Source: Saccharibacillus kuerlensis DSM 22868 (lineage in GTDB: Bacteria > Bacillota > Bacilli > Paenibacillales > Paenibacillaceae). From it: DNA of 64,000 nucleotides. Positions within the stretch are counted from its first letter, which is position 1, and every line of letters begins with the position of its first letter. The translations under genes and the position numbers were made by a program. The stretch lies in assembly GCF_000378145.1 (NCBI RefSeq), contig NZ_KB899279.1:79127-143126 (forward strand), in the 5' to 3' direction. Positions 37,900-55,590 of the stretch are shown one piece after another. A model generated the notes under the pieces. That model searched no databases and was not told the DNA's origin. It saw nothing but the letters and a program-made list of their open reading frames with translations.

Positions 37900-38367
37900 A
37901 TGAAGCATAGATTTGCCGCGATACTTCGCAGAAGTATTCCGGCTGCCCTGATTCTGTCCTTACTGCTGCTTCCTGTCGGCCGCTCGGCCGAAGCCTGGGA
38001 GCCATTCGATAATTTCATGAACGGAATTGAAACGTTCGGCAAGCTCCCGTCCGAAGTCAATCAGCTGCGTCAAAGTTACGAGAAAACCGTAGACGAACTG
38101 GAAGGCGCCAAAGCCGATATCCAGGCTTATCGAAACGAAATGGAAATATACCGAAATGAGATTAATCAGCTTAACGAACAGAATAAACTTCTTGATGAAC
38201 AGAACCGACAGCTGCAGCAGACCGTCACAGCCCTGAATGCCGTACAGGAAGAACGAGAGCAAAGCTCAAGAACGTTGAAGACGGTTATTTTTGTTCTTGT
38301 CGGCCTTCTTGTAGGTTATTTCATATTCATTCGCGTTCTGCGCCTCGGACTGCGCGGTAGACGATGA
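37900..38367 (+). CDS. Membrane protein with periplasm-side coiled coil, function unknown
   Basis: 155 aa. A signal peptide or membrane segment at residues 13-30 (IPAALILSLLLLPVGRSAEA) is followed by a coiled coil from about 45 to 125 rich in Glu, Gln and Asn, and a C-terminal membrane segment (TVIFVLVGLLVGYFIFI) ending in Arg-rich sequence. No catalytic domain is recognised. It is 13 bp ahead of an AIM24 gene and probably cotranscribed with it. I do not know a family for it. Confidence 0.8.
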   Translation: MKHRFAAILRRSIPAALILSLLLLPVGRSAEAWEPFDNFMNGIETFGKLPSEVNQLRQSYEKTVDELEGAKADIQAYRNEMEIYRNEINQLNEQNKLLDEQNRQLQQTVTALNAVQEEREQSSRTLKTVIFVLVGLLVGYFIFIRVLRLGLRGRR

Positions 38368-38380
38368 TCGGAGGATATGC

Positions 38381-39088
38381 ATGAACATTATCCATGAACA
38401 ATCCGGAGACTCGTTCGGCGCGCAGGCCTATACGTTCGAACTGGATGAGCACGATACAGCCCATGTGCTGCACCCGCAGCAGATTGCCGTTTACCGCGGT
38501 GACCCGCGCAATCGCAGCGACAGGCTGCTTGAAATCAGCCGAATGATGCGCAAACGCAAGTTGATTCGCGCCGACTTCAAAGGCGAGTGTGCGTTCACCG
38601 CCGTACTGCCAGCGGGATTCGGCCTTCAGACACTCGACCTTTCAGGCGGAAGCGATATGCTGTACGATTTTCGGCAGCTCTTCTTCTATACGGACGGTAT
38701 TCAGATGAAAAGCCGCATTTTGAAGCTCAAAAACATGCTAATCACTCAAGACGCGATCAAAATGAAATTTTCCGGCGAAGGACAAATTGGCATTATGACG
38801 CAGGGCACGGTTTTTCAAGCGGAACTGCATGAGACGGAACCGATCTACATCAATGCCGGCAGCATCCTCGCCTATCCGGAGAACGCGAAGCTTGACCTTG
38901 CCGTTTACGGTAACCACCTCGCCAGCCAACATATGAACTATCATTGGAAAATGACCGGCCGCGGTCATATTTTGCTTCAAGCCGGCGGAACGCGCAGCCA
39001 AGAACTGCGCGAACATATGGAAGACGAGGGACTCGTCAAGCGGATTTTAAGAGAAGCGATTCCTTTCGGTAACGTTTTTATTAAATAG
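38381..39088 (+). CDS. AIM24 family protein
   Basis: 235 aa of the AIM24 (TRAP-like beta-roll) family, named for a mitochondrial biogenesis protein but common in bacteria. Typical elements are TDGIQMKSRILKLKNML, GQIGIMTQGTVFQAELHETEPIYINAGSILAYPENAKLDLAV and GRGHILLQAGG. No signal peptide or metal motif is seen. GGAGG precedes the ATG. AIM24-like proteins often occur near stress genes; here the Ter cluster begins 0.6 kb downstream on the other strand. Confidence 0.88.
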   Translation: MNIIHEQSGDSFGAQAYTFELDEHDTAHVLHPQQIAVYRGDPRNRSDRLLEISRMMRKRKLIRADFKGECAFTAVLPAGFGLQTLDLSGGSDMLYDFRQLFFYTDGIQMKSRILKLKNMLITQDAIKMKFSGEGQIGIMTQGTVFQAELHETEPIYINAGSILAYPENAKLDLAVYGNHLASQHMNYHWKMTGRGHILLQAGGTRSQELREHMEDEGLVKRILREAIPFGNVFIK

Positions 39089-39689: not shown

Positions 39690-40820
39690 TTATTCAAGCA
39701 GACTTGAGATCGACTGCAGACGCTGCGCTTCGTTCTGCTGGCCGGCGCTTACCCGAGCCGGCTCCGAACCTTCTGGGCTTCCCTGCATCAGCCCTAAGCG
39801 GCTGTGCATCTGCTTGTTAATTTCCGTCATGCGGCCGGTCTGTTCTGTCGCCGATTGGATAATTGTACGATTGGACTGTTCATACAGATCCATCGCCGAG
39901 AACAGATCGCCCATCGCACGCTCGACAGCCTCCATTTGCATAGCCGGCTTGCCAAGCAGATCGTTCGTTTTCTGCGTCGTTTCTTTTAACATGCGCGAAT
40001 TGTCCTCGAACATGTTTTGCAGCGTCTGATTGGCCGTATTGACGGCTTCAATCGTCTCCATCTGATCCTGCAGCGCCATTGCGATCATCGCAGATACGGT
40101 GATCAGATGCTGAGTCTTGTCGATTGTGGCGTCAACGGAGTCGATCAGCTTGTCGTTATTGTCGTTAATAATGTCAGCACCGGCAATCGCTTGCTGATAC
40201 AGCAGAATCATTTCAGTAAACGACTGGATACGGGTAACCACTTTGCGCAGTCCGCGCTCCAGCGTCGTTTTACGTCCTTCATTTTCCGGCTTTGCAATCT
40301 CTTCCTCGAACAAAGCTTTCAAGCGGTTGCCCATTGCAATTCGCATCTGCAAATTATAAACTTCCTCAATCGCCGTCCGTTTAAGGTTGCGCATATACGC
40401 CATATTTTCCTCAAGCGTATCTTTGCCGTTGCGCAGAGAAACGACAATTGCATCGACATTGGTCTTAACCGATTGATATTTATAAATATAATTTTTGAGC
40501 GGGGTCTTGCGCATAAGCTTATCGAAAAAACCAAGCTGCTGGCTCTTGCTGAGCGAATCGATCTCGCTTCTCAGACGAAGAATATTGCTGCCGACTTCCG
40601 AGCGCTTGCCCGATACCATATCATTGACCGGACGCTGCAGCATCTCCAGCGATTGGCCCGCCTTCTCCATCGTACGCTGACCCATCCGCCCGATCTGATC
40701 CATCAGATCGTCGAGCTGCAGATTATCGGTATTGGCGACTTTCTGAATCACCTGTTTTGCTTCCTGCTCGACTTTGTCCATATCGTTTTTTTTCAATTCG
40801 ACGGCAAGATTCATAGACAT
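39690..40820 (-). CDS. Toxic anion resistance protein TelA family
   Basis: 376-aa cytoplasmic, almost wholly helical protein of the TelA/KlaA family (B. subtilis YaaN and YceH). Characteristic stretches are GFFDKLMRKTPLKNYIYKYQ, RMAMGNRLKAL-like residues near 165 and DATIDKTQHLITVSAMIAMALQDQ. The ATG at 40820 follows GGAGG by seven bases. It lies 74 bp after an XpaC-like gene, reproducing the xpaC-yaaN pair of B. subtilis. The family is linked to tellurite and envelope stress; its mechanism is unknown. Confidence 0.93.
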   Translation of the reverse strand: MSMNLAVELKKNDMDKVEQEAKQVIQKVANTDNLQLDDLMDQIGRMGQRTMEKAGQSLEMLQRPVNDMVSGKRSEVGSNILRLRSEIDSLSKSQQLGFFDKLMRKTPLKNYIYKYQSVKTNVDAIVVSLRNGKDTLEENMAYMRNLKRTAIEEVYNLQMRIAMGNRLKALFEEEIAKPENEGRKTTLERGLRKVVTRIQSFTEMILLYQQAIAGADIINDNNDKLIDSVDATIDKTQHLITVSAMIAMALQDQMETIEAVNTANQTLQNMFEDNSRMLKETTQKTNDLLGKPAMQMEAVERAMGDLFSAMDLYEQSNRTIIQSATEQTGRMTEINKQMHSRLGLMQGSPEGSEPARVSAGQQNEAQRLQSISSLLE

Positions 40821-40894
40821 GAATATTCCTCCTTTTACGGCGCACAGGTCCGATTATGAGTTCGAACACAAGCCGACTCGACTGCGCGAATATG

Positions 40895-41662
40895 TTAATC
40901 TGAAGTCCGATAACGCTGCTGAATCAGATCGATGCGGCTCTGGAGTTCAATCAGATCACGGTGCTCGATCGTCTCCACATAGAGCGAAAGCCGGGAGTCG
41001 ATATCCTTGATGCCGTCCAGCAGCAGCCGGCGATTTTTGCGCTTGGCTTCACCGCTTAGCTTCAGGAAAGGATTGATGGCACCGTTTAGATCCTTGAACA
41101 CCAGCCGCTGAATATTATGATTGATCTTGCTGTCGTTCAATTCTTTGAGCTGAGGAATCAGACGGGAAATGCGGACAAGCAGCGACATCGTCTTTTCGAC
41201 AATTTCGTTATCCAGTGCATTTTTCTGCCCTTCGGAAATAATAAGTTCTTCAATAACGGAAATGTATTCGTGCACCGGATCCCATAGATCGTCCGGTTCC
41301 GCAGCTGCCCGGGATGCAGCGGACGGCTGCGGGTTCGGTACTTTCGGCGCCGATGCTGTCGCAGCCGGCGCAGCTTTACGTTCAGTGACTCCCTCCCGCC
41401 GACGACGTTCTACCGCTTCATCGACAGCTGGAATCCCTGTTCTTCTTCCACTTGGAGGAAGGGCTTCAGACTGTGACGACACCTCAATTGGAACCGGCTT
41501 AGACTTCTGCTTCTTAAATGCGCCGATACTTACCAGTACCGCTCCACCGGGGATAAGCATCGAGATGAATTCCGGCAGAAATCCTTGGGATACGAACGCA
41601 ACGGCATAACCTGCAACAAAGGCCGTGATAGGCAGGCCGTAACGTTTAATATAATTGATCAT
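40895..41662 (-). CDS. xpaC: XpaC-like protein (5-bromo-4-chloroindolyl phosphate hydrolysis family)
   Basis: 255 aa. Two hydrophobic segments at residues 8-50 (LPITAFVAGYAVAFVSQGFLP and MLIPGGAVLVSIGAF) anchor it in the membrane. An Ala/Pro/Ser-rich linker (about 60-125) leads to a helical C-terminal domain with LDNEIVEKTMSLLVRISRLI and RLVFKDLNGAINPFLKLSGE. Despite the family name the biochemical activity is not proven. It is paired with telA downstream. Confidence 0.85.
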   Translation of the reverse strand: MINYIKRYGLPITAFVAGYAVAFVSQGFLPEFISMLIPGGAVLVSIGAFKKQKSKPVPIEVSSQSEALPPSGRRTGIPAVDEAVERRRREGVTERKAAPAATASAPKVPNPQPSAASRAAAEPDDLWDPVHEYISVIEELIISEGQKNALDNEIVEKTMSLLVRISRLIPQLKELNDSKINHNIQRLVFKDLNGAINPFLKLSGEAKRKNRRLLLDGIKDIDSRLSLYVETIEHRDLIELQSRIDLIQQRYRTSD

Positions 41663-41765
41663 GCCTTAACACCTCCAGCTTAATGGCAGAGTTTACGGCG
41701 TGTGTTCAAATCATCTATTGTTCAGGTCGGTCAGTCACCCTTCGAAGCCTACTTCTCTTTTTGAC

Positions 41766-42818
41766 TCAGATGCCCGAGATTTCGGTTTCGCTGCGGATCC
41801 TGTCCAGCCTTACAGCCTGCTCTACGTAACTTGCCTTGATTCCAAATTCCGGTTCCGGCACCTCACACGGTTCGCCGAATGCCGCCTTGACCGCCAAATA
41901 CGGAAAATTGACACCGGACAGACACGTAATATACAGACCGCCGGACATGCGCGGATTGATTTCCAGCAGTTTGGGAACACCTTTATTGTACTTCACCTGC
42001 ACATTAAAAGCATAGGGAATACGGCAATTTTCCGCGATCCGCCGCGATAGCGCCAGCAGCTCTTCGGAATACTCCAGATCGTACACGCGCCCTTCCGACT
42101 TGCGCCGGGGAACAGCAGCCAGCAGGTTGCCTGCCGCATCCGCCAGACAGTCGATACTGTATTCGTCGCCTTCCAGCAGCTCCATGACCATCAGATCGTC
42201 AAAGCGTTCTACAGAAGACAGTATCCGGAAAGTCTCCTCGTATGTCGTCTCCAGCGATACCCAACCGTAAAGCTCCTTCAGCGGGTCGCCGGCTTCCTGC
42301 TTAAGAATACGGAAGCCCATGCCGCCTTCGGATTCTGTGGGCTTGAAGCAGACCCGCTCGCCGGCTTCCGTCAGCTCACGATAAGCTTGTGCAAACTCCT
42401 CCGCCGTACGAACAACCCGATAAGCGGGAATTTCGACCACTCCGCGCCCTTCAAGCGAACGATAAAATTTTTCTTTATTCATCATATTCTCCAACAATTC
42501 CAGATCGCTGCATACCATGACGCGGGTACCGACTTCTGCGAAACGATCGATATTTCGGGCAATCAATTCCATATGCAGCCGCGGAATGAGAAGATCAATT
42601 CCGTGTCTGCGGCAAAAATCGAGACAGAATTGGATATATTCCTCGCCTTTAACCTGCGGCTCGGTCTCTTTGACATCGCAGGCACTGAGCGAGACATGAT
42701 CGATGTTGGGATGCGTACCGTAAAATTCAAATGCTTCTCCGTCTTCGTTGTCGCGGATCAGGTTCACATAATGATAAGCAACCGAGAACCAGCGGTTCAA
42801 CCATATTTTTCTCATCAT
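41766..42818 (-). CDS. ATP-grasp domain protein of the Ter-associated module
   Basis: 350 aa. The N-terminal third is a Rossmann-like preATP-grasp domain with DLLIPRLHMELIARNIDRF. The ATP-grasp core has CFKPTESEGGMGFRIL (ATP-binding lysine and glycine loop), VMELLEGDEYSIDCLAD and KLLEINPRMSGGLYI (metal-binding Glu and Asn). Such enzymes ligate a carboxylate to an amine with ATP. Neighbours are the HAD phosphatase upstream and XpaC/TelA downstream. The substrate is unknown; a nucleoside- or amino-acid-like compound is suspected from context. Confidence 0.88.
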   Translation of the reverse strand: MMRKIWLNRWFSVAYHYVNLIRDNEDGEAFEFYGTHPNIDHVSLSACDVKETEPQVKGEEYIQFCLDFCRRHGIDLLIPRLHMELIARNIDRFAEVGTRVMVCSDLELLENMMNKEKFYRSLEGRGVVEIPAYRVVRTAEEFAQAYRELTEAGERVCFKPTESEGGMGFRILKQEAGDPLKELYGWVSLETTYEETFRILSSVERFDDLMVMELLEGDEYSIDCLADAAGNLLAAVPRRKSEGRVYDLEYSEELLALSRRIAENCRIPYAFNVQVKYNKGVPKLLEINPRMSGGLYITCLSGVNFPYLAVKAAFGEPCEVPEPEFGIKASYVEQAVRLDRIRSETEISGI

Positions 42819-42900
42819 TCATCTTCCTCTTCGGGTTTTGGCAGTGCAGCATCAGGCGGAATTATGGTGTATTACGCGAAGCCGGACTCCCGGGTTTCGT

Positions 42901-43734
42901 TCAATCCGTTTTCTCTGCAGGCGATACGACGTCTACAGGGGGCAAAGCAAACCATTCGGCGATCTTGGCGATCAAATCCTCTGCTGCTCCCATGCCGTCG
43001 CGTTCGGTAAATGTATAAAGTCCAGCCTCCATATAGGAAGCATAAATTTCACCATGCCGGGGAACGATTGCATAATCGGCGGCCTGCAGCAGACTCTCGT
43101 CCAGCAGTGAATCGCCGGAAGCGGCAATTCGGGAAGCCCCTACCTGTTCTTTGACATACAGCAGTCCCGCTCCCTTGCTCACTCCATCGGGAACGAGATA
43201 CATCTTGCGTCCCTGTACGGATACATTCCATTTCATACCGGCAAGCTCTTTCCTAAAGTCTTCGACCTGATCGAGCGGCATCTTCTCCCGGTCCAGGATA
43301 ATCGAATAGAACAGGCTGTCCGAATGCCGATAAGACTTGACCCAATCCGGCGAGGAGATGCGGTCAAACGCCTCGATCACTTTACCCGCTTCCTCGCTGC
43401 TCTCCAGCGCCCGATTCACATGAAGCTGCCAATCGGGGTCCGGCACGCCATTGACCAGCACATTGCCACCGTTGCTTGTTACGGCGTACTGCGGCTTGAA
43501 AGTTTCCCGAATATAGAAAATGCGTTCGTACTGCTCGATCGTCCGTGTCGTCACCGGCACGAACAGCGCCGTTTTGGACAGTTCCGCGAGCAGACGTGCC
43601 GTCTCCGGTGACATGAACGAAATATGCTCACCTTGGTATAATTCTACCGGAATCAGTTCGGAAGCTTCAAAAGCTTCACCGATCGCTTTTTTTGAATAAA
43701 TGAGTGTCCGGTCGAGATCGCTTGCAAAGATCAT
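42901..43734 (-). CDS. HAD-superfamily (Cof-type) phosphatase of the Ter module
   Basis: 277 aa. Motif I is DLDRTLIYS near residue 6 (nucleophile Asp), motif II VPVTTRT, motif III lysine in DGVSKGAGLLYVK and motif IV ASGDSLLDESLLQAADYAIV. The cap domain lies between motifs II and III, as in Cof-type and sucrose-phosphatase-like enzymes. The start overlaps the stop of the StiP gene by four bases (ATGA). It is expected to remove phosphate from the product of the module. Confidence 0.9.
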   Translation of the reverse strand: MIFASDLDRTLIYSKKAIGEAFEASELIPVELYQGEHISFMSPETARLLAELSKTALFVPVTTRTIEQYERIFYIRETFKPQYAVTSNGGNVLVNGVPDPDWQLHVNRALESSEEAGKVIEAFDRISSPDWVKSYRHSDSLFYSIILDREKMPLDQVEDFRKELAGMKWNVSVQGRKMYLVPDGVSKGAGLLYVKEQVGASRIAASGDSLLDESLLQAADYAIVPRHGEIYASYMEAGLYTFTERDGMGAAEDLIAKIAEWFALPPVDVVSPAEKTD

Positions 43735-44882
43735 GCTTCGCCTCCGTTCAATGGTTTGATAATGCCGCAGCAGGAATAGGTCAGTCCCGGATACACTTCC
43801 ACAGGAACACCCCGATCTTCAGCAAGCAGCAAAATATGGCGCAGGTTGGGATTGTCGAGCCGGTCGACGAGGATTTTCCACGGTACCCGCCGCAGCAGGA
43901 CCCGGGTCGTTTCACCTACGCCAGGCTTGACCAGATTGACATCGCCAATTCCGTAATCCTGCTGGATTCGCGCAATATCTTGCATTCCCTGCCAAGTGGA
44001 TACGTTCGCCTCGGGCAGCTGTTCAAGCCTTGTCGCTTCACGCTTCGCTTCTTCACGGATCTCATCGAAATAAGCGCTCACCCGATCGACAAACAAATTG
44101 GATACGTCATCTTCAAGCCATTCCTTATAATATTTGGCTCCATGAAAATCGTCCGGTCCGATCAGATCTTCTCGCAGTACGGTACGACTCATCAGCCCTG
44201 ATACGGTCGAATTGAGGCAAGCGCTCGGGATCAGAAAATCTTCCCGCGTGCCGAATGTCTCCGAGCAGCGACCAGGATCGGCCAGAACGGCCAGATCGTC
44301 GCTCAACTCAACTCCGTATTTGTCCAGCATGATCTTCCGGGCTTCTGTCAGCACATTACGAATGGCTCCCTTGCCGGTCCAGCCATCGACGAACTGGATG
44401 CGCCGGCCTTCGTGCTCCCGCAGCATGTACAGCACCGCATTCTCGTCGATGCCTTTGCCGCGAATAATGGAAATGCTGTAATGAGGTAGCTCCACTCCGT
44501 GAATGTGCTTGAAGTAGCGTTTCATCAGAATGCCGATCGGTGTACCAGCTCGCGCCAGCGAAGCCAGTACAAGATTCGTTCCATGCCTCGCGGCCAGACG
44601 CTCCGAGACGATGCCGGCGGCAAGCGCCACTTTGCGTGCTGTCGCTTCCAGTGTCTCATGGAATAGAGCTAGGTACTCCGGCGTCGGGCGATATTCGATC
44701 GGCAGCATCTCCGAATAATGCGTGCCGCCCTGAATCGCTTCTTCCCGATCCTCCGTTCCTCGCTCAAGTTTTACATCGCTTAAGTCCTTCAGCAAAAAAA
44801 TAACATCATTGATGCTGTAGCTGCCCAACCGTTCAGGCACCGGCAGCGACCCGGCAGCAAGCCTCCCATTTGACATGTTCAT
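43731..44882 (-). CDS. StiP-family protein with C-terminal PELOTA RNA-binding-like domain
   Basis: 383 aa. The N-terminal 290 residues match the cysteine-protease StiP domain found in Ter operons, with EMLPIEYRPTPEYLALFHE, RAGTPIGILMKRYF, FVDGWTGKGAI and the Cys-containing FLIPSACLNSTVSGLMSRTV. The last 80 residues (KILVDRLDNPNLRHILLLAE and VPVEVYPGLTYSCCGIIKPL) fit the PELOTA_1 RNA-binding module. The N-terminal part also resembles a phosphoribosyltransferase-like fold, so protease activity is not certain. It overlaps both neighbours by four bases. Confidence 0.82.
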   Translation of the reverse strand: MNMSNGRLAAGSLPVPERLGSYSINDVIFLLKDLSDVKLERGTEDREEAIQGGTHYSEMLPIEYRPTPEYLALFHETLEATARKVALAAGIVSERLAARHGTNLVLASLARAGTPIGILMKRYFKHIHGVELPHYSISIIRGKGIDENAVLYMLREHEGRRIQFVDGWTGKGAIRNVLTEARKIMLDKYGVELSDDLAVLADPGRCSETFGTREDFLIPSACLNSTVSGLMSRTVLREDLIGPDDFHGAKYYKEWLEDDVSNLFVDRVSAYFDEIREEAKREATRLEQLPEANVSTWQGMQDIARIQQDYGIGDVNLVKPGVGETTRVLLRRVPWKILVDRLDNPNLRHILLLAEDRGVPVEVYPGLTYSCCGIIKPLNGGEA

Positions 44883-46357
44883 TCTCCTTCCTCCGACGGG
44901 CCGCTGGCAGCCCCTGCGGTGACCAAATGTACCAGCGGAATTCCGGTGTTCTCCAGCGCAGCCAGCAGTGGTTCAAGATTCGTCTCAACCGGCTGCCGTT
45001 CCAGGAAAACGAATATTTCGTCGTACTCTCCTGCAGGCACGTTATAAAAAAAGTTTGCGATTTCCGGATCATCGGGCGATACATGCGGAAATCCGCTGCG
45101 AACCGCATAACCTTCTTCGTCCAGCACGTGAATTGGACTGCGCGTACTGGACTGGTAACGGACCCCTTCGCCCAATTCGGCTGCGATTCTCATCGGTACA
45201 TACATGAATTCTCCAGTCCCTAGGCACAGCGTACGACGGCCTTGACGGATCAGTGCCAGATGCGAGGCCGACTCACTAATCTGCTGGTCCAGCGCAGCAT
45301 TGTTCTCCTCGTGCATGCCGAACCGGCCGGTCCATTCCAGATACGGACAAGTTGATTTCTTACCGGTCGAGTTAGTCGAAATCGCATTTGTATGAGTGAA
45401 GAAAGGGGTCAGGTCATGCCGGATCACCTTCATACTGCCGCTTCCGCGATACTCCGGCATAGACTGGGGCAGACGATTGACCGGTCCGCCTTCCACTTCG
45501 ATCCGCCCTTCGATCAATGCAAGGGTATCGATCGTAATCGACAGCTCTTTTTCCAATTCGGCAAACCGCTGCCGGTCTTCGGCATTGCGCCAGTCCAGCA
45601 GGCTTGCGACAACATAGCGACGGCGCGGATACTTGCTCTGCAGATCGCGAATAATATTCAGTGCCGTGTTCCCGGTCGTCACCTCGTCATCGACCAACAC
45701 GACTGTGTCTTCTCCTTCGAAGAAGGAATTTTCGCGGGCATAACAGCGATGAGACGTCGCATGCGAATGCTCTTCCTCAAAACTCAGCACTGGCTGCCGA
45801 TCAACCAGATCCTCTCTAGTCGTATGAAGAAATCGCGTATCGCCCGCGAAGCAGTCGTACATGGCATGTCCGAGTGCGGTCGCTGTTTCCGCAAAAGCGA
45901 TAAAGAGCGCGGGCTCGCCTGCGTGCAATTTGTTTGCTCTGAGCCGTCTGTAAAGCTCGCGTGCTTCGTTCCTATCGCCGCGAAATGCCGAGCAGACTTC
46001 TTCAAGGCTGCCGATGCCGCCCTTTTCAACCGCTTCGTTCTTACCATCTACCGCTTCCGAACGGCGGCGCTGCCACAGCAGAGCAAGCACCGCACCGCCG
46101 AGCAGAGATTGATGCGGATCGACCGGAATGTGCTTACCGAGAATTCGACTGACAAAGAGGAAACTGCGCTTTTTGTTAATTCGTGCAGCCATTTGAAACA
46201 GATCATCCGGCTCCAGTCCGAACGGATTCGAAGTCACACGTACCCGTACAGTCAGCCCTTCAGGCATTTCATATTGATACACCGGTACCGACTCGACTGA
46301 ATTCGCCGCCTCGGACAAATCAGCGGACGAGCAGTGCGGTAAAATTCTGGTTTTCAT
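44879..46357 (-). CDS. Phosphoribosyltransferase with C-terminal TRSP domain
   Basis: 492 aa. The PRTase domain (about residues 30-290) carries the PRPP-binding motif VVLVDDEVTTGNTALNIIRD near residue 220. The C-terminal part from about 320 has GRRTLCLGTGEFMYVPMRIA and the literal STRSPIHVLDEEGYAV from which the TRSP domain is named. The start overlaps the aldolase gene by 38 bases and has a modest GGGGTG site. In Ter operons this protein always accompanies the ATP-grasp, HAD, StiP and aldolase genes. It presumably joins a base-like group to ribose phosphate, or runs the reverse step. Confidence 0.88.
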   Translation of the reverse strand: MKTRILPHCSSADLSEAANSVESVPVYQYEMPEGLTVRVRVTSNPFGLEPDDLFQMAARINKKRSFLFVSRILGKHIPVDPHQSLLGGAVLALLWQRRRSEAVDGKNEAVEKGGIGSLEEVCSAFRGDRNEARELYRRLRANKLHAGEPALFIAFAETATALGHAMYDCFAGDTRFLHTTREDLVDRQPVLSFEEEHSHATSHRCYARENSFFEGEDTVVLVDDEVTTGNTALNIIRDLQSKYPRRRYVVASLLDWRNAEDRQRFAELEKELSITIDTLALIEGRIEVEGGPVNRLPQSMPEYRGSGSMKVIRHDLTPFFTHTNAISTNSTGKKSTCPYLEWTGRFGMHEENNAALDQQISESASHLALIRQGRRTLCLGTGEFMYVPMRIAAELGEGVRYQSSTRSPIHVLDEEGYAVRSGFPHVSPDDPEIANFFYNVPAGEYDEIFVFLERQPVETNLEPLLAALENTGIPLVHLVTAGAASGPSEEGE

Positions 46358-47504
46358 TCAGCACCCCATATATTTCCGAACGAATCATGATACGCCGCGC
46401 CCAATTGAGATGAGGCTTGATCTCGTTCATTTTATTGTCGTAGCCGCTCTTGACGACCCCGATCTCGCCTCCGCTGCTGGCCAGAATATGCGAGGCATCC
46501 ATATGCTCCTCATGCGTAACGGTATATAAAGCCTGGACGGGGCAGATATGCGTAGGATGAATAATCGTTTTTCCGACAATGCCGTTCTCCTTGTCCATCT
46601 CTACCTCACGAATCAGACCGTCTACATATTTATTAATATACTGCATTCTCAGTCGAAGCCCCGCCTGCCCGGCCATCTCCTGAAAAGGAGTTTCCCGCAG
46701 CAGCGGCTTCAGCACCCGGTCGCTTTTGAAATATTCCCATACCGGGCCCGAGATGACATATCCGCTGCCCGCCCGGCCAAATAGATTGACGATATCTGCC
46801 ACACAATCGCGGATTACGCCAATATCGTAGATGGTCATGTCGGGCTTGCGGCGGAGGCCAAACTGACTGGAAAAATCAGTCGCTCCGAGTCTTACGTTCA
46901 ATATGTAGGTGCGGTACCGGTCAAGCAGTTCTTTGATTCCCAGCAGCGTCTCACGTCTCGTTTCCGCATAAATAATCTCGGCGCTTTCCAAAATTGGCAT
47001 GCCGTACAGCAGCGGACTTCCGGCAGGTCTTGCTTCGTTATACCGATGCAAAAGTTCCAGATAACGCTGACCTGTCTGGACATCGAATTTGGGAAATACG
47101 AGACCGGTTAGTCGAACGACGGCTTCACCTAACTGATCCAATATACGCTGTGCTTGATCTGGCGTCCGAATCCGGATAAAAATAAGCGGCAGCTTTTCCA
47201 AATCGAATGTTCCATCCGCAGCCCACTTGTCCAAACTTCGGATCTGAGAGACGAGCGAAACCTCCGCCTCCTCCACCTTCAGATCTCCAACAGCATCCTC
47301 CAGGTCGATAACGATTGAAGTCAGCCCTTTGTGCTTGCCGGTGCTTAAGTCCTGCGCAATAGTCGATCTTGTCGCCGGCATGTACAAAGCGGCTCCGATT
47401 GCATGAGCCAACAGTTCTTTCTCCGACCGGTTGCAGAACGGTGCAGGAGCCAAGTGAAATAGTTCAGCAATCTCTTCCACCGATAAATAATCGAAATAAC
47501 GCAT
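46320..47504 (-). CDS. HpcH/HpaI aldolase, CitE-like, of the Ter module
   Basis: 394-aa TIM-barrel C-C lyase. Landmarks are YMPATRSTIAQDL and SIVIDLEDAVGDLKVEEAE (metal-binding Asp and Glu), FIRIRTPDQAQRIL, GMPILESAEIIY, and a C-terminal GKTIIHPTHICPVQALY that closes the active site. The ATG at 47504 follows GGGAGG; an upstream frame extension is not used. It is the first gene of the five-gene module. Citrate lyase activity is unlikely because the other lyase subunits are absent. Confidence 0.88.
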   Translation of the reverse strand: MRYFDYLSVEEIAELFHLAPAPFCNRSEKELLAHAIGAALYMPATRSTIAQDLSTGKHKGLTSIVIDLEDAVGDLKVEEAEVSLVSQIRSLDKWAADGTFDLEKLPLIFIRIRTPDQAQRILDQLGEAVVRLTGLVFPKFDVQTGQRYLELLHRYNEARPAGSPLLYGMPILESAEIIYAETRRETLLGIKELLDRYRTYILNVRLGATDFSSQFGLRRKPDMTIYDIGVIRDCVADIVNLFGRAGSGYVISGPVWEYFKSDRVLKPLLRETPFQEMAGQAGLRLRMQYINKYVDGLIREVEMDKENGIVGKTIIHPTHICPVQALYTVTHEEHMDASHILASSGGEIGVVKSGYDNKMNEIKPHLNWARRIMIRSEIYGVLNENQNFTALLVR

Positions 47505-47696
47505 GATCTTTCCTCCCACGATAGGGTTCCCTGTCACGAAGTCTAGGCAATCTGCCAAACCGGTTTATTTACGACAATTCGAAAAACTCCGCCGAACGAA
47601 GAAAACACTCTGCGTCGACAGCGATGCTCGCATCCCATAAAAATGCGGCATTCCCGAGCAGGAAGCTTTCCCCATATGCGGAGGAATAAAAGAAAC

Positions 47697-47714
47697 GGCG
47701 GCGCAAACGCCGCC
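47697..47714 (-). terminator. Hairpin between the terD genes and the biosynthetic module
   Basis: GGCGGCG-CAAA-CGCCGCC, followed on the minus strand by GTTTCTTTTATT. It may reduce or stop read-through into the aldolase gene; no clear new promoter was seen in the 190 bp that follow. Confidence 0.5.
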
Positions 47715-47767
47715 TGTACTTATAATCAATTAATCGTGAGTGTATCGGAGATATTCTCATAAATTGC

Positions 47768-49261
47768 TCACTTGCTGCCGGTCTTCCAGTTCAAGCCCCA
47801 GCCGTAAGCTTCGTCAAGCTGCCGATGACCGGAGAAAAATTCAATGAGGCGTTCTATACTGAACGTCTGATCGTTTACGTTGGTGATCATGGCAATCGCA
47901 CACATGCCTTTGCGGCTTCCCTGTTCGTTCATCCGGACGACGATATCGGGCCCTCCGCCTTTGACAGTCACGACACCGTCGGCCTGCGCCCAGTTCGCCG
48001 CTCCCTGGTAGATAAAAGCATAAACGACTATTCGTTTGATGTCGCGCAGATGCGCCCCATTGATTCTCATGTTCTCGCCGCCGGCTTTTGTCCCGGTTCG
48101 ATCGTCGCCATCAAGCATGACATAAGGCGGATCGCTCAGCGAACCGAAGGCGCGTCCGAGCGCCTGAACCGTTCCCTTACGGCCATCCTTGAGTTCAAAT
48201 AGACAGCCCAAGTCAAGATCAACTCCGGTTGTCTTACCAAAAAATCCAGTACCTTGACGCTGATTCCAGTTGAGATTGATGAGGATCTCGCCAATTGAAT
48301 CGGTACCCGCTTTCTTCTCCAAGCTGATCTTGTCGCCGCGCTTGGTCAATTCGATCTTCTGCAGGCTCGGCGCAGAAGGCCGGGCCTCGGATGCCGAAGA
48401 AAGCTGCGGAGACGGCGATCCGGTGTGCACGGAAGGCGTTCCGGCCTGCGCCGAAGACGATCCGCTCTGCGGCGGCGAAGTCGCTCTGCTGCCGGGAGGC
48501 GGCAGAACGCGAGGCGAGGATCCGTCCTGCGCACTTTGAGGCGCAGGCGGGATTCCGCCGCCCTGCCGGGAAGGGCGGCCCAGATTGAGCGGCGAAGGGT
48601 TTCCGCCGCTTGGCGGCTGTGCCGGTTGTGCCGGCGGCACGGGCGCAGCTGCCGAAGCCGGAGGAGCAGCAGGCGGAACAGGATCGGGTTCCGCCTGTAC
48701 TTCGATACCGAAGCTTCGGCACAGCGCTTCGAGCCCGCCCGTATAACCGCTGCCGACGGCATTGAATTTCCACTCGCCGTTATGACGGTACAATTCGCCG
48801 ACGACGATGGCCGTCTCAACGCCGGAGACTTTATCCAGCGTAAAACGAATCAACTCCGCCCCAGTCCGCTCATCAACAATGCGCAGATATACGCCGTTTA
48901 CCCCAGCGAAATTCTGCTTTCTTTTCTCGCCTTCATACAGCGTCAGTGCAAAAGCAATTCTCTCATACTTGGCCGGGATGCCGAGCAGCGAGACAGAAAC
49001 CTGCTCATGATCCGTAACGCCCGCGTATGGTCGACGGCTTTCCGTCTGCAGCTGTAGAGCGCCGCCTGCGCCGGAAGGGTTACCGTAAAAGATCAAATCT
49101 TCGTCAGCCGAGGTTTTGGAATTGGCTCCGAGCAGAAACGCCGAGAAGTCAATATCGATTCCTGACGATGCCTGCCAGCCCATTCCGACACCAATCCGGT
49201 CGAGGCCGGGATTGGTTTTGGTCAGGTCGGCTTTCTGCCCCCTGATCATATTCGTCGTCAC
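47768..49261 (-). CDS. TerD-TerA fusion with proline/serine-rich linker
   Basis: 497 aa: an N-terminal TerD domain (1-190), a Pro/Ser/Ala/Gly-rich linker (190-310) and a C-terminal TerA-like domain (310-495) containing GVDLDLGCLFELKDGRKGTV and DDRTGTKAGGENMRI. The N-terminal domain has lost the acidic calcium loop of its neighbours: where they have [14 protein letters not shown] it has ESRRPYAGVTDHEQ. The C-terminal domain keeps acidic residues. The start is a GTG at 49261 with AAAGGCGG upstream, aligning with the other TerD starts. It is fourth in the terD run. Confidence 0.88.
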   Translation of the reverse strand: MTTNMIRGQKADLTKTNPGLDRIGVGMGWQASSGIDIDFSAFLLGANSKTSADEDLIFYGNPSGAGGALQLQTESRRPYAGVTDHEQVSVSLLGIPAKYERIAFALTLYEGEKRKQNFAGVNGVYLRIVDERTGAELIRFTLDKVSGVETAIVVGELYRHNGEWKFNAVGSGYTGGLEALCRSFGIEVQAEPDPVPPAAPPASAAAPVPPAQPAQPPSGGNPSPLNLGRPSRQGGGIPPAPQSAQDGSSPRVLPPPGSRATSPPQSGSSSAQAGTPSVHTGSPSPQLSSASEARPSAPSLQKIELTKRGDKISLEKKAGTDSIGEILINLNWNQRQGTGFFGKTTGVDLDLGCLFELKDGRKGTVQALGRAFGSLSDPPYVMLDGDDRTGTKAGGENMRINGAHLRDIKRIVVYAFIYQGAANWAQADGVVTVKGGGPDIVVRMNEQGSRKGMCAIAMITNVNDQTFSIERLIEFFSGHRQLDEAYGWGLNWKTGSK

Positions 49262-49313
49262 AGAAATTCCGCCTTTCACTCAAGATCTACGAATGCTGCC
49301 TAGCTTTTTGAAA

Positions 49314-49895
49314 TTATTGAGCGTCAAGACCGTAATTTTTGCACAGGGCGGCCAATCCGCCTGAAAATCCGGAACCGATCGCCTGAAATTTCCAATCTTC
49401 GCCATGACGGTACAGTTCGCAGATTACAACGGCTGTTTCTACAGAAAATTCTTCGCCGAGATCGTAGCGCAGCACCTCGCGGTTGTTTTCCTCATCAACG
49501 ACGCGAACGAATGCATTCGACACCTGACCGAAATTTTGCGAACGCGACTCGGCATCGTGAATGGTAACCGCAATACCCAAACGACTGATATTTGCAGGAA
49601 TCAACGAGAAGTCGACCTGGATTTGCTCGTCGTCTCCTTCTCCTTCACCGGTCCGGTTATCCCCGGCATGCACTACGGCTCCGTTCGGAGTCTTGGGATT
49701 ATTGTAGAATACAAAGTCTTCGATCCCTTTTGCCCGGCCATCTTCGTGCAGAAGAAAGACCGAAGCATCCAGATCATAATCCATACCACTGCTGTATTTA
49801 TTCGTATCCCATCCAAGACCAATTCGAACTTTTTTGAGGCCCGGATTGGTTTTGGTAAGATCGATACGCTGTCCTTTGGAGAGACTGATTGTCAT
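49314..49895 (-). CDS. TerD family protein
   Basis: 193-aa single TerD domain, a calcium-binding beta-sandwich linked to tellurite, phage and envelope stress. Calcium ligands are expected in [12 protein letters not shown] and [14 protein letters not shown]. The C-terminal [20 protein letters not shown] is the family signature. The ATG at 49895 follows GGAGG. It is very similar to the next upstream TerD, which points to tandem duplication. Confidence 0.95.
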
Positions 49896-49986
49896 CGTTA
49901 ATTCCTCCATTCATTCATTTCATGGACTTTGGAACAATTGAAAATTAAGTCGGATGATCAATTGCGGAACTGTAGAATTGCGAACA

Positions 49987-50015
49987 AAGGCCGTCTATAT
50001 GGCAGACGGCCTTTG
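49987..50015 (-). terminator. Intercistronic hairpin within the terD run
   Basis: AAAGGCCGTCT and AGACGGCCTTT are 11-bp perfect arms around 7 bases. No T tract follows on the minus strand, so it may set RNA stability or partial termination rather than stop transcription. Confidence 0.5.
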
Positions 50016-50064
50016 GGATTAATGATCGTTCATGAACTGCTTGGGAATACAAATGGCTTTGGAA

Positions 50065-50646
50065 TTAAGATACAGCCAGTCCGAAGTCGCGTACAAGGCC
50101 TTCCAGACCGTTCTGGTAGCCGCTTCCTACGGCGCTGAATTTCCATTCGCCCGAGTGACGGTACAGCTCGGCTACGACAATTGCCGTTTCTACGGAGAAA
50201 TCTTCACCCAAGTCGTAACGGATCAATTCTTCGTTGGTATCGGCGTTTACAATACGTACAAAAGCGTTCGAGACTTGACCAAAGTTCTGCGAACGAGCTG
50301 CTGCGTCGTGGATTGTGATGCAGAAAGAGATCTTCTCGACTTCAGCTGGTACGGAAGCCAGCTCAACCGTCAACTGCTCGTCGTCGCCTTCACCTTCGCC
50401 TGTCCGGTTATCGCCGGTATGTACCACGGCACCGTTAGCGTTTTTCGGATTGTTATAGAAAACGAAGTCCGTATCTGCCGTTACTTTGCTGTTGCCGCCC
50501 AGCAGAAATGCCGAAGAGTCCAGGTCGAAATCCTTACCGCCGTCATACTTGTTGGTGTCCCATCCGAGACCGACCAGTACTTTTTTAAGACTTGGGTTTG
50601 TTTTCGTCAGATCGACTTTTTGTCCTTTTTGCAAGCTGATTGCCAT
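50065..50646 (-). CDS. TerD family protein
   Basis: 193 aa. The same architecture as its downstream neighbour: [26 protein letters not shown] and [20 protein letters not shown]. The ATG at 50646 follows AAGAAGGAA. Acidic residues for calcium are intact. Position and similarity suggest an oligomer or paralogue set working at the membrane with TerB and TelA. Confidence 0.95.
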
Positions 50647-50691
50647 GAATAATTCCTTCTTTCTTGTTAGGATTTGGTTTGAATATATAAA

Positions 50692-51291
50692 TTAGCTGTA
50701 ACGACGTGCAAGCAGATCGATATGAGGAGCCTGCGCGCCTTCGCCGATGGCGCTGAACTTCCATTCGCCGCCGTGCCGGTAAATTTCGCCGACCAGCAGC
50801 GCAGTCATGCCGGAATAATTATCTGTCAGATTGAAACGAATCAGTTCACGGCCGCTTCCCGATTCGAACACACGGATAAAAGCGGAGCGAATCAAGCCGA
50901 AATGCTGTTTGCGAGCTTCGCAGTCGTAAATGTTAACGACAGCCAAAATACGATGAACATCGGCCGGTACTGCGGACAGATCGATATGAATCTGTTCGTC
51001 GTCCCCGTCGCCAGCGCCCGTCAGATTGTCACCGCCATGCACGACCGAACCGTTCGGACTCTGCAGGTTATGGAAACAAACAACATTTTTCCCGGCGGTC
51101 AACTTACCTTGTTCATTCAGCAGCAGCACGGACGCATCGCAGTCGATATTCGCCGCTTTCTTCTTCAACCCGAATAAGCCGCGGCTTTCGGATTCTGCCG
51201 GGTCCCAGCCTAATCCAACCGTAATTTTCGATAAGCCCGCGTTCCCTTTCGTCAAATCGACTTTCTGGCCTTTTACCAAAGAAATTGTCAT
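50692..51291 (-). CDS. TerD family protein, diverged (YceC-like)
   Basis: 199 aa. It differs from the other copies by an insertion after GLGWDPAESESRG (GLFGLKKKAA) and by CDASVLLL in the first metal motif; the loop GDNLTGAGDGDDEQ is kept. The ATG at 51291 has GGGAGGG twelve bases upstream. It is the first gene after the predicted ECF-type promoter, matching yceC as first gene of the B. subtilis yce operon. Confidence 0.93.
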   Translation of the reverse strand: MTISLVKGQKVDLTKGNAGLSKITVGLGWDPAESESRGLFGLKKKAANIDCDASVLLLNEQGKLTAGKNVVCFHNLQSPNGSVVHGGDNLTGAGDGDDEQIHIDLSAVPADVHRILAVVNIYDCEARKQHFGLIRSAFIRVFESGSGRELIRFNLTDNYSGMTALLVGEIYRHGGEWKFSAIGEGAQAPHIDLLARRYS

Positions 51292-51342
51292 TGCTGTCTA
51301 TTGCCCTCCCAATTGGAATGGTGTGGAACAAAGTCTACTTGA

Positions 51343-51372
51343 ATTATAACTGCTCACTCAGATGCAAAACAA
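51343..51372 (-). promoter_or_regulatory. Candidate SigA promoter of the terD operon
   Basis: On the minus strand TTGTTT, 18 bp, TATAAT. It would give a leader of about 45 nt. Confidence 0.5.
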
Positions 51373-51433
51373 CCTTACCCCTCCGAGGTTCGCCGGAATA
51401 TACCGATGCACCCCAGTTGAGCGCTTGGTTAGG

Positions 51434-51461
51434 TATACGTCGAACACGGAGAACAGTTTCA
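51434..51461 (-). promoter_or_regulatory. SigW-type (ECF) promoter of the terD operon
   Basis: On the minus strand TGAAAC, exactly 16 bp, CGTATA. This is the consensus of B. subtilis SigW promoters, which also drive the related yceCDEFGHI operon. It is about 140 bp before the first terD start codon. Confidence 0.82.
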
Positions 51462-51490
51462 GTTACTTTGCAATTAAAGTGGTCTATACT

Positions 51491-51538
51491 AAAAGAACCT
51501 CCGGCAGAGACCGTAAAACGGACAAGCCAAAGGTTCTT
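51491..51538 (-). terminator. Possible terminator downstream of terB
   Basis: AAGAACCT and AGGTTCTT arms with a long loop, TTTT on the minus strand. A modest stem. Confidence 0.45.
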
Positions 51539-51583
51539 CCTCCTTCATACATGCATACAGATATCCGCTGTACGGTGTTATTC

Positions 51584-52030
51584 TTACAGGCCGAAATCTT
51601 CCGACTTCAGATTCAGTACGTTACAAATATCGCGTACCGCCGCCTTTTCCTGTTCGTCAAAGTCTCCGTCCGCCGCACCGATCGCGCAGCATACACCTAC
51701 AACGATACGTCCAACTTCAGGCTTGGACTTGAATTTGGCAATCGCCTGCAGCGCTTCCTGTTTGCCGACCATCACGTCAAATTCCATGCTGCCTGCAAAG
51801 TGATTGAAGCGATCGATCGCTTCGCTCAGGTTGAACACTTTTAACTGCTCGCTGCGACCGATATATACCTCCATCTTCTGTCTCTCCGCCGAATCAATCG
51901 TACCGTCAGCTACCGAAACGAGCGCACAGCCCGCCACGATGGCGTCCAGAAGATCTTTGTTCTTGAAACGGCCTACCTGATCCTGCAGTCCTGTCTTTGT
52001 CTTGTTCAGCCAGCTTTGAAACGAACTCAT
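51584..52030 (-). CDS. terB: TerB family tellurite resistance protein
   Basis: 148 aa, all-helical TerB domain, with VAGCALVSVADGTIDSAERQKME near residue 35 and CCAIGAADGDFDEQEKAAVRDI near residue 120, the paired acidic helices that may bind metal. The ATG at 52030 follows GGAGG; five upstream residues in frame are not used. It lies upstream of the terD promoter with its own likely terminator, so it seems to be transcribed separately. Confidence 0.93.
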   Translation of the reverse strand: MSSFQSWLNKTKTGLQDQVGRFKNKDLLDAIVAGCALVSVADGTIDSAERQKMEVYIGRSEQLKVFNLSEAIDRFNHFAGSMEFDVMVGKQEALQAIAKFKSKPEVGRIVVGVCCAIGAADGDFDEQEKAAVRDICNVLNLKSEDFGL

Positions 52031-52192
52031 CGTATGCGCCTCCATTGTATAGAAATGGTGAAGCTTATAAAGCTGAATTTCAAGCGATCTTTTATTTAAC
52101 GCCTGCGCACACAGTATAACTCATTTGCTCGGCGATTTCTCCTTTGCCGCTTTTGAGTGGTTTGGAAGCACGCCAAATCCTCCTTAAATCGC

Positions 52193-54664: not shown

Positions 54665-54749
54665 ATAGCACGCTGCGGCGAAAATGATCGTCCTGCAGCT
54701 TCATGTATTTTTCAATTGAATAGAAGAGATTCCGTGCTCTGCAGCACGG

Positions 54750-54783
54750 GAGAGGTTCGAGAACTCCCTCTATAAAAAACTAA
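54750..54783 (+). promoter_or_regulatory. PreQ1-I riboswitch aptamer
   Basis: AGAGGTTC, a short variable loop, then CCCTCTATAAAAAACTAA: the P1 stem AGAGG/CCTCT and the A-rich pseudoknot tail match the B. subtilis queC preQ1-I aptamer almost base for base. It precedes queC, so queuosine precursor genes should be turned down when preQ1 is plentiful. Confidence 0.96.
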
Positions 54784-54890
54784 TTGCCGCCCCGCCGAAC
54801 TCGAGGCTTTTTCGGCGTGCCCTTTGGGAACCGCAGCGCAATTCCGCTCGGTCGGCCCTGTTTTTTACGACAAGTTCCTGAACCTCTTTC

Positions 54891-54926
54891 CTTCCCAATC
54901 ATAAAGAAGAAGAAAGAGGTTTTTTG
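54891..54926 (+). terminator. Terminator-like hairpin overlapping the queC ribosome binding site
   Basis: AACCTCTTTC and GAAAGAGGTT, 10-bp perfect arms, followed by TTTT. The AGAGG of the right arm is also the best ribosome binding site for queC, so the hairpin could block translation, stop transcription, or both. Confidence 0.75.
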
Positions 54927-54927
54927 C

Positions 54928-55590
54928 ATGCTTAAAAACGAAAACGCGGTCGTCGTATTCAGCGGCGGTCAAGACAGCACAACCTGCCTGTTCTGGGCCA
55001 AAAAAACATTTGCTGAAGTTCATGCCGTCACCTTCGACTACGGCCAACGCCATAAGTTGGAGATCGAATGTGCCAAATCGATCGCGGAAGAACTCGGCGT
55101 CCAGCATACGGTGCTTGACATGAGCTTGTTAAACCAGCTCGCTCCGAACGCTTTGACTCGCGATGATATTGAAATTACGCATGAGGAAGGCGAACTGCCA
55201 AGCACCTTCGTGGAAGGCCGCAATCTGCTGTTCCTCAGCTTTGCCGCGATTCTTGCCAAAGGCATCGGTGCCCGCCATATCGTGACAGGCGTATGCGAAA
55301 CCGACTTCAGCGGCTATCCGGACTGCCGGGATACGTTCATCAAATCGCTCGACGTGACGCTCAACCTGGCGATGGACTATCCATTTGTCATTCATACGCC
55401 TCTGATGTGGCTCGACAAAGCCGAAACGTGGGCACTCGCCGACGAACTGAACGCGTTCGATTTCGTTCGCGAACGCACACTGACCTGCTATAACGGCGTG
55501 ATCGGCGACGGATGCGGCGAATGTCCGGCCTGCCAGCTGCGTCGTGCCGGTCTCGACAAGTATGTTTCAGAACGGAAGGCAGCACTATGA
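54928..55590 (+). CDS. queC: 7-cyano-7-deazaguanine synthase QueC
   Basis: Converts 7-carboxy-7-deazaguanine to preQ0 with ATP and ammonia. 220 aa. The PP-loop [16 protein letters not shown] lies near residue 10; the zinc cysteines are in [20 protein letters not shown] near residue 190. The ATG at 54928 is the only start after the riboswitch expression platform. It overlaps queD by four bases. Confidence 0.98.

Follow-up and report, generated by a model that had tools for sequence, protein, structure and literature searches.

A 64,000-nucleotide stretch of the Saccharibacillus kuerlensis DSM 22868 genome (NZ_KB899279.1, 79,127-143,126; hereafter the window, whose positions serve as our coordinates) carries twelve open reading frames (ORFs) between 39690 and 52030, all on the minus strand, in which Ter genes are followed by biosynthetic enzymes, a membrane protein and TelA. 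We think it fairly probable that this cluster encodes a Ter system under envelope-stress control, exerted by an extracytoplasmic function (ECF) sigma factor of the sigma-W type, and coupled to a small-molecule pathway. That reading draws on gene content, folds as seen in structural models, catalytic residues, linkage of the genes across genomes, and a conserved promoter motif.

The Ter half opens with TerB (51584..52030; PF05099, 5e-22), whose ORF begins at 52045 and whose likely start, from the ribosome-binding site, is at 52030. Three TerD genes (50692..51291, 50065..50646, and 49314..49910; PF02342, 3.6e-70, 2.7e-86, and 3.3e-83) and a gene for a 503-amino-acid protein with a TerD domain and a second TerD-like domain (47768..49279; PF02342, 5.3e-66, two stretches) come next, and these four TerD-family genes lie directly upstream of the biosynthetic genes. 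The latter encode a CitE-like C-C bond lyase (46320..47504; C-C_Bond_Lyase PF15617, 6.5e-118; its ORF opens at 47558, and the ATG at 47504 has a ribosome-binding site), a PRTase_2-TRSP phosphoribosyltransferase (PRTase; 44879..46357; PRTase_2 4.8e-71, TRSP 1.1e-43), StiP-PELOTA (43731..44882; StiP 1.3e-102, PELOTA_1 2.2e-36), a HAD-IIB phosphatase (42901..43734; S6PP 1.1e-8), and an ATP-grasp ligase (ATPgrasp_Ter; 41766..42818; PF15632 1.9e-45). A membrane-anchored helical protein, its topology read from the sequence (40895..41662), precedes a divergent TelA (39690..40820; PF05816, 3.8e-37). An earlier, sequence-only reading had described this gene set as a Ter cluster on one strand joined to a five-gene biosynthetic module and an XpaC-TelA pair; its place, strand and content hold, with Pfam matches for eleven of the twelve ORFs, and the four-base overlaps that it had noticed between PRTase and StiP and between StiP and HAD are exact (the lyase and PRTase genes overlap by 38 bases). 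The XpaC assignment of 40895-41662 was rejected: PF10112 was matched by none of 18 family members, and profile comparison with a genuine XpaC of a related genome gave a probability of 0.3%. As for the proposed TerD-TerA fusion, the two TerD stretches stand, and the second TerD-like domain is probably TerA, an identity checked solely by similarity to plasmid proteins (55-59% identity over the C-terminal part; 8 of the 10 matches listed are labelled "TerD family protein"). Comparison of the two halves of this protein by BLAST gave no significant match.

The linkage of the genes was examined in 93 StiP loci: the window, 12 loci from a sample of 239 genomes of the phylum, and the best 80 from a scan of species genomes that found at least 593 StiP relatives among at least 596 stretches. 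Thirteen loci with short flanks were excluded, leaving 80 with flanks of 6 kb or more on each side. The lyase, PRTase-TRSP, HAD and TerD genes were present in every one of these 80 loci, and in 79 of them the order lyase-PRTase-StiP-HAD was kept on one strand (the exception, L119, may be an artefact of ORF starts). PRTase-TRSP and StiP lie in a single open frame with no stop between them in 18 of the 93 loci (8 from Bacillota and 10 from Streptomyces). Among the 239 genomes, TRSP was found in 13, StiP in 14, TerD in 15, and a lyase with E<1e-90 in 14; all 13 TRSP genomes fall inside the StiP, TerD and strong-lyase sets, and their inclusion among the 15 TerD genomes has a hypergeometric P of about 1e-19, kinship being ignored. 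Other genes varied among the 80 loci: TerC was present in 62, ATP-grasp in 28, a TelA of the window's type in 21, the XpaC-like protein in 19, and TerB in 15. At its default threshold the ATPgrasp_Ter model matches 200 of the 239 genomes, mainly through general ATP-grasp enzymes; strong matches (E<1e-30) occur in 5 of the 13 TRSP genomes and in one genome without TerD. Four enzymes (lyase, PRTase-TRSP, StiP and HAD) together with TerD are thus a near-constant core, and ATP-grasp is an optional, lineage-specific addition. In loci of the Bacillaceae type, YceG and TelA take the place of the ATP-grasp, membrane protein and TelA of the Paenibacillaceae; of the 79 loci other than the window, 35 have YceG and 17 the window's trio, these names resting on one representative each. 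The five-gene module of the sequence-only reading is therefore borne out for four of its enzymes and is not strict for the fifth, and the neighbourhood survey that it had proposed bears out the tie to TerD (80/80 StiP loci, 13/13 TRSP genomes), with the exceptions described next. Cation-transporting P-type ATPases adjoin Ter loci in 9 of the 79 (for example L124 14000-16774, L023 3995-6682, and L034 7991-10591).

Several loci depart from the set. Acinetobacter phage ME3, whose Ter system is treated in passages of PMC7824862, shares a TerC-like gene, TerD, PRTase, HAD and StiP with this kind of cluster and differs in that no lyase or ATP-grasp match was found in 19 kb. Divergent PRTase, StiP and HAD genes with TerD and without a lyase also occur in one genome of the sample (G189); a set of this description lies at L034 4369-7288, where StiP is without the family cysteine. 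An unverified phage clone of 15.4 kb (L126) has PRTase, StiP, three TerD genes and, on the other strand, a lyase, with no HAD match, and a contig from a viral collection (L122) has the order PRTase-HAD-StiP-lyase. A second viral-collection contig (L121) encodes all five enzymes with no TerD in 21 kb. The lyase stands alone, without the rest of the set, in G095, at a locus that, judged from the starts of its ORFs, looks like one for surface-sugar synthesis. Among the short-flanked loci, L045 has StiP, HAD and ATP-grasp, and the roughly 10 kb upstream of them hold neither a lyase nor PRTase or TerD; L087 has the four core enzymes without TerD, its contig beginning at the lyase; and in L074, L080, L097, and L120 one or more genes are missing at a contig end. 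Genes for macro-domain, ADP-ribosylglycohydrolase, vWA and FtsK proteins stand beside the enzyme set of L121 (13424-16366, 2302-7681), and these neighbours may hint at ribosyl chemistry. A general association with macro-domain and ADP-ribosylglycohydrolase genes was rejected: in the loci searched, the two proteins of L121 matched themselves alone, and ME3's own macro protein matched just the two copies of the ME3 stretch.

The enzymes keep their predicted catalytic residues. In the lyase, ten checked residues are invariant in 40 of 40 sequences, including E69, D70, R111, K139, E173, D210, K312, and H316, which we take to be of CitE type, and profile searches lead to citrate and malyl-CoA lyases. 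The HAD enzyme retains D6, D8 and T10 (DxDxT), T62, and K187 in 25/25, and the ATP-grasp ligase, whose likeness is to carbamoyl-phosphate synthase-like proteins, retains K115, K159, E286, N288, and R290 in 15/15. The loop for phosphoribosyl pyrophosphate (PRPP) in PRTase-TRSP, DDExxTG, is conserved, with D224 and E225 present in 59/59. The AlphaFold model of this protein (predicted local distance difference test, pLDDT, 91.1) has as its top 16 Foldseek matches adenine PRTases or PRTase-related structures, followed by orotate PRTases. For StiP (pLDDT 94.5), HGPRT, PyrR or APRT structures account for 9 of the 10 Foldseek matches at E<=0.001. As modelled, StiP is a PRTase-fold domain, joined to a putative L7Ae/PELOTA-like RNA-binding domain.

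Upstream of the first TerD gene, by about 145 bp, lies a sigma-W-type promoter (51436..51461, minus strand) that reads TGAAAC-N16-CGTA; we take TGAAAC and CGTA to be the sigma-W consensus. Passages of PMC3498285 speak of a sigma-WXY consensus site, and its sequence is not printed in them. The motif was sought from 400 bp before to 60 bp into the first TerD gene, with the expectation set by each locus's own rate; 30 of the 91 loci have the strict form, where 0.54 would be expected, and among 200 permuted motifs the mean count was 0.02 and the highest 1. Before TerB, the strict motif was found in 2 of 15 loci. The host genome has a SigW gene above the curated cut-off, and a sigma-W-type site lies between sigW and the following gene, a probable anti-sigma factor to judge from its start. 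No sigma-B promoter was matched in the window. These signs support the prediction that the operon is under envelope-stress control of the sigma-W type.

The sequence-only reading had also remarked that TerC is absent from the window. It is not in the cluster, and two TerC genes are present elsewhere in the genome. In two congeners (L041 and L042), TerC stands between the TerD-A and lyase genes, and the window, without TerC, is otherwise collinear with them. One of the separate TerC genes of S. kuerlensis (contig C28) is 91% identical to the copies in these two genomes, and all three genes have a strict sigma-W-type site at a nearly equal distance upstream, with different spacers. The site before TerD in the congener clusters is not strict, being one mismatch away in L041 and found in L042 by a looser search alone; the number of L041 sites that differ at two positions or fewer does not exceed chance (13 versus 17.9). 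TerC was probably lost from the window's cluster, and a co-regulated copy kept elsewhere. The genome has a second Ter-type gene outside the cluster as well, a 705-716-amino-acid ORF with two TerD domains (contig C4, L038, 8687-10804, plus strand).

A second candidate for control lies at the junction between the Ter half and the biosynthetic half, which are separated by two RNA elements on the minus strand: a strong hairpin of terminator type behind the TerD-A gene (47714..47697; 7 G-C pairs and a T-rich tail) and a structured leader RNA (47691..47580), a 112-nucleotide hairpin with a T-tract and a fold z of -4.05. No other hairpin in the region has as many G-C pairs as the former, but the region-wide scan for terminators is at chance (18 versus 15.1 in shuffled sequence). 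A model of the leader, R1, built from three sequences, has full-length copies in 8 of the 16 genomes of the genus (E<1e-8, one sense-strand site each), a count from which further copies could be missing, with at most 150 first-look candidates scored per genome. All eight copies are just before the lyase gene, and two more genomes gave weak matches alone. A second, differently built type of structured leader, R2, precedes the lyase in four loci of the Paenibacillus type (L027 7879-7999, L028 8306-8427, L047 7213-7336, and L049 7243-7360). Of seven leaders folded, three from the genus and four of the Paenibacillus type, six have z < -2.8, and L047 has -1.25. Neither the window leader nor, at the gathering threshold, those of the Paenibacillus type match Rfam, and no Ter leader RNA is named in the open-licence literature searched. 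That R1 and R2 form one family was rejected, as neither model finds the other's members at E<=1 in 60 sources.

The distance from the end of the leader to the lyase start codon is 27-39 nucleotides in 7 of the 12 leaders measured, which leaves little room for a promoter and so suggests control by read-through; the window, at 75 nucleotides, is not among the seven. Against that reading, strong folds are expected near terminators. In the leader alignment, 88% of cells are paired (43-63% when slid). Covariation is weak: three pairs changed on both sides; 29 of 500 shuffles gave at least as many, and one slid version gave more. A control weakened the view that terminators mark out the lyase junction, since junctions with gaps of at least 40 nucleotides elsewhere carry them too (TerD-TerD 9/74, TerD-TerC 14/40, TerD-TerD_A 10/18, and before the lyase 19/57). 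A switch between two local hairpins was discarded, the local hairpins being too weak in G252; in none of the eight leaders do the predicted ensembles pair the 3' arm locally. One could suppose that the leader gates the enzymes, (i) a stress promoter turning on the Ter proteins and (ii) the RNA, a hairpin of about 110-160 nucleotides with a T-tract that would have to be read through for the enzymes to be expressed, deciding whether the metabolite is made, either by sensing the product or through feedback by binding of the StiP PELOTA domain; we regard this proposal as doubtful. What the comparisons suggest is an undescribed leader RNA, interesting but unproven.

In the pathway that we favour, TerB, the TerD proteins and TelA, with the TerC encoded elsewhere, would form a membrane-linked response complex. 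PRTase-TRSP would transfer phosphoribosyl from PRPP to a nitrogenous acceptor, and StiP, its neighbour and sometimes its fusion partner, might carry out a second step of PRTase type. The HAD enzyme would then take off the 5'-phosphate, the CitE-like lyase would make or break a C-C bond, and, in the window's lineage, the ATP-grasp enzyme would add a carboxyl or amino group. What results may be a signal or protectant that is ribosylated and nucleoside-like, with TerD or TerB as possible binding partners. In this scheme the direction of the reactions, the substrates, the order of the steps, the product, and the component that senses it are all inferred.

A number of observations weigh against this scheme. 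In 52 of the 80 loci there is no ATP-grasp gene, and phage ME3 and G189 have no lyase; a pathway of this kind must be able to run, or reach another end, in the absence of these enzymes. Similarity to StiP was the criterion for choosing the 80 loci, which favours close relatives, and one of the 15 TerD genomes (G066) has no more than a weak match with an internal stop. For StiP, the highest-ranked Foldseek row is an aminotransferase that superposes poorly, and further entries of aminotransferase type appear lower in the list. The template modelling (TM) scores to PRTases are modest for both proteins, about 0.3-0.55 when normalised by target length. The StiP loop, DGWTGKG, varies little or not at all and is atypical against DDxxTTG, so that StiP may not use PRPP. 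As to control, none of 89 loci has the strict sigma-W motif before the lyase, and the pattern is not enriched in the whole genome (31 sites versus 35 for the reversed control); the weight of the promoter therefore rests on its conservation across loci. A further 22 genome matches to the SigW model fall below the cut-off, so that another ECF sigma factor could be the one used.

Four other explanations of the module were considered. If PELOTA brings StiP to RNA, the RNA might be ribosylated or have a base exchanged there, with the HAD enzyme trimming the phosphate. The PELOTA domain itself speaks for such RNA modification (its best solved matches by profile are L7Ae ribosomal proteins, weak at E of about 0.07, and K319, E324, R327, and R332 of StiP are invariant in 60/60), as does the fact that PRTase, StiP and HAD make up the smallest sets seen, in phage ME3 and G189. 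We nonetheless hold it to be distinctly unlikely, for the chemistry of a lyase and an ATP-grasp ligase better suits a free metabolite, and the PELOTA domain could equally be regulatory. Salvage or detoxification, in which damaged nucleotides or PRPP adducts would be broken down under stress by PRTases running backwards, the phosphatase and a cleaving lyase, accords with the stress-type promoter and with the general chemistry of PRTases, HAD enzymes and lyases, whose known families include reversible or degradative reactions. The ATP-grasp ligase that some of the loci encode, together with a gene order that is tight and fixed, suggests synthesis instead, which makes this explanation an unlikely one.

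A proteolytic step would follow if StiP were the cysteine protease that public labels call it, a name that it carries in Pfam and in 28 of the 30 plasmid matches listed, and C222 is indeed kept in 57 of 60 sequences. Three divergent members have H, I and I in its place, and the modelled fold is that of a PRTase; on both grounds the label is unsupported, and a protease is highly improbable. The name, sought in three forms, turned up in one paper of the full-text literature searched. That the genes are mere neighbours with no common pathway is given hardly any credence. The lineage-dependent ATP-grasp, membrane protein and TelA, as well as the lone lyase in G095, would fit it, but it is largely contradicted by linkage in 80 of 80 loci, by the single ORFs of PRTase and StiP, and by the gene overlaps in the window. 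The stress-controlled, Ter-coupled synthesis of a small molecule is the account that we retain.

This account is close to a published proposal. Passages of PMC7824862 and PMC8115787 cite a 2012 prediction by Anantharaman, Iyer and Aravind of a Ter-associated pathway to a nucleoside-like metabolite, and two Pfam domains, including ATPgrasp_Ter, are named for the Ter pathway. The sequence-only reading had pointed to such a proposal; as far as those passages describe it, it is the same one, and it fits the domains, catalytic residues and co-occurrence found here. The remark that the product is uncharacterised also agrees with the open-licence literature searched, in which no product is named. The 2012 pathway, in the passages of PMC7824862, has the same TerB, TerD and TelA with PRTases and HAD; set against it as the citing papers describe it, the window's traits are the lack of TerC in the cluster, the Paenibacillaceae tail of ATP-grasp, membrane protein and TelA, the sigma-W-type promoter, and the leader before the lyase. 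In the enterobacterial plasmid ter locus (R478/Klebsiella type), as passages of PMC8115787 present it, a putative biosynthetic cluster adjoins terZABCDEF, and the locus has two opposed operons, unlike the window. StiP relatives were found on 2566 of 72,556 plasmid records, at 35-37% identity in 28 of the 30 matches listed. In the scan of species genomes, the closest named StiP among the matches listed is that of S. endophyticus, at 87% identity. The yceCDEFGH operon of Bacillus subtilis, under sigma-W/M/B according to passages of PMC3498285, resembles the cluster in its sigma-W-type control; the B. subtilis control genome has TerD and neither TRSP nor StiP. Genes of the yce operon are taken to encode TerD, TerC and TelA. 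Bacillaceae loci differ from the window in having a YceG-domain protein where it has ATP-grasp and the membrane protein. Models of the PADLOC defence families gave no match among 10 of the cluster's 12 proteins.

Beside the cluster, a convergent gene for an AIM24-family protein (38381..39088, plus strand; PF01987, 1.6e-12) and a coiled-coil gene (37900-38367, plus strand) are kept in two congeners, and AIM24 is present in 13 of the 79 loci. On the other side, a PreQ1 riboswitch (54746-54783, plus strand), the sole Rfam match in the window, directly precedes QueC (54784-55590, plus strand); QueC is beside the cluster in 1 of the 80 loci, the window alone, and is not tied to the Ter genes.

The S. 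kuerlensis cluster is a well-conserved member of a known, biochemically unsolved kind. Passages of PMC12054061 and PMC8115787 tie ter genes to tolerance of tellurite, phage and stress, and StiP relatives occur on plasmids, their companion enzymes' product not being named in the literature searched. The core set, StiP as a PRTase-fold model, its natural fusions to PRTase in some bacteria, and the predicted envelope-stress control make the question of that product testable. The point about StiP annotation touches the label on most of the plasmid matches listed (28/30), and the promoter and leader signs are new handles for finding the molecule.

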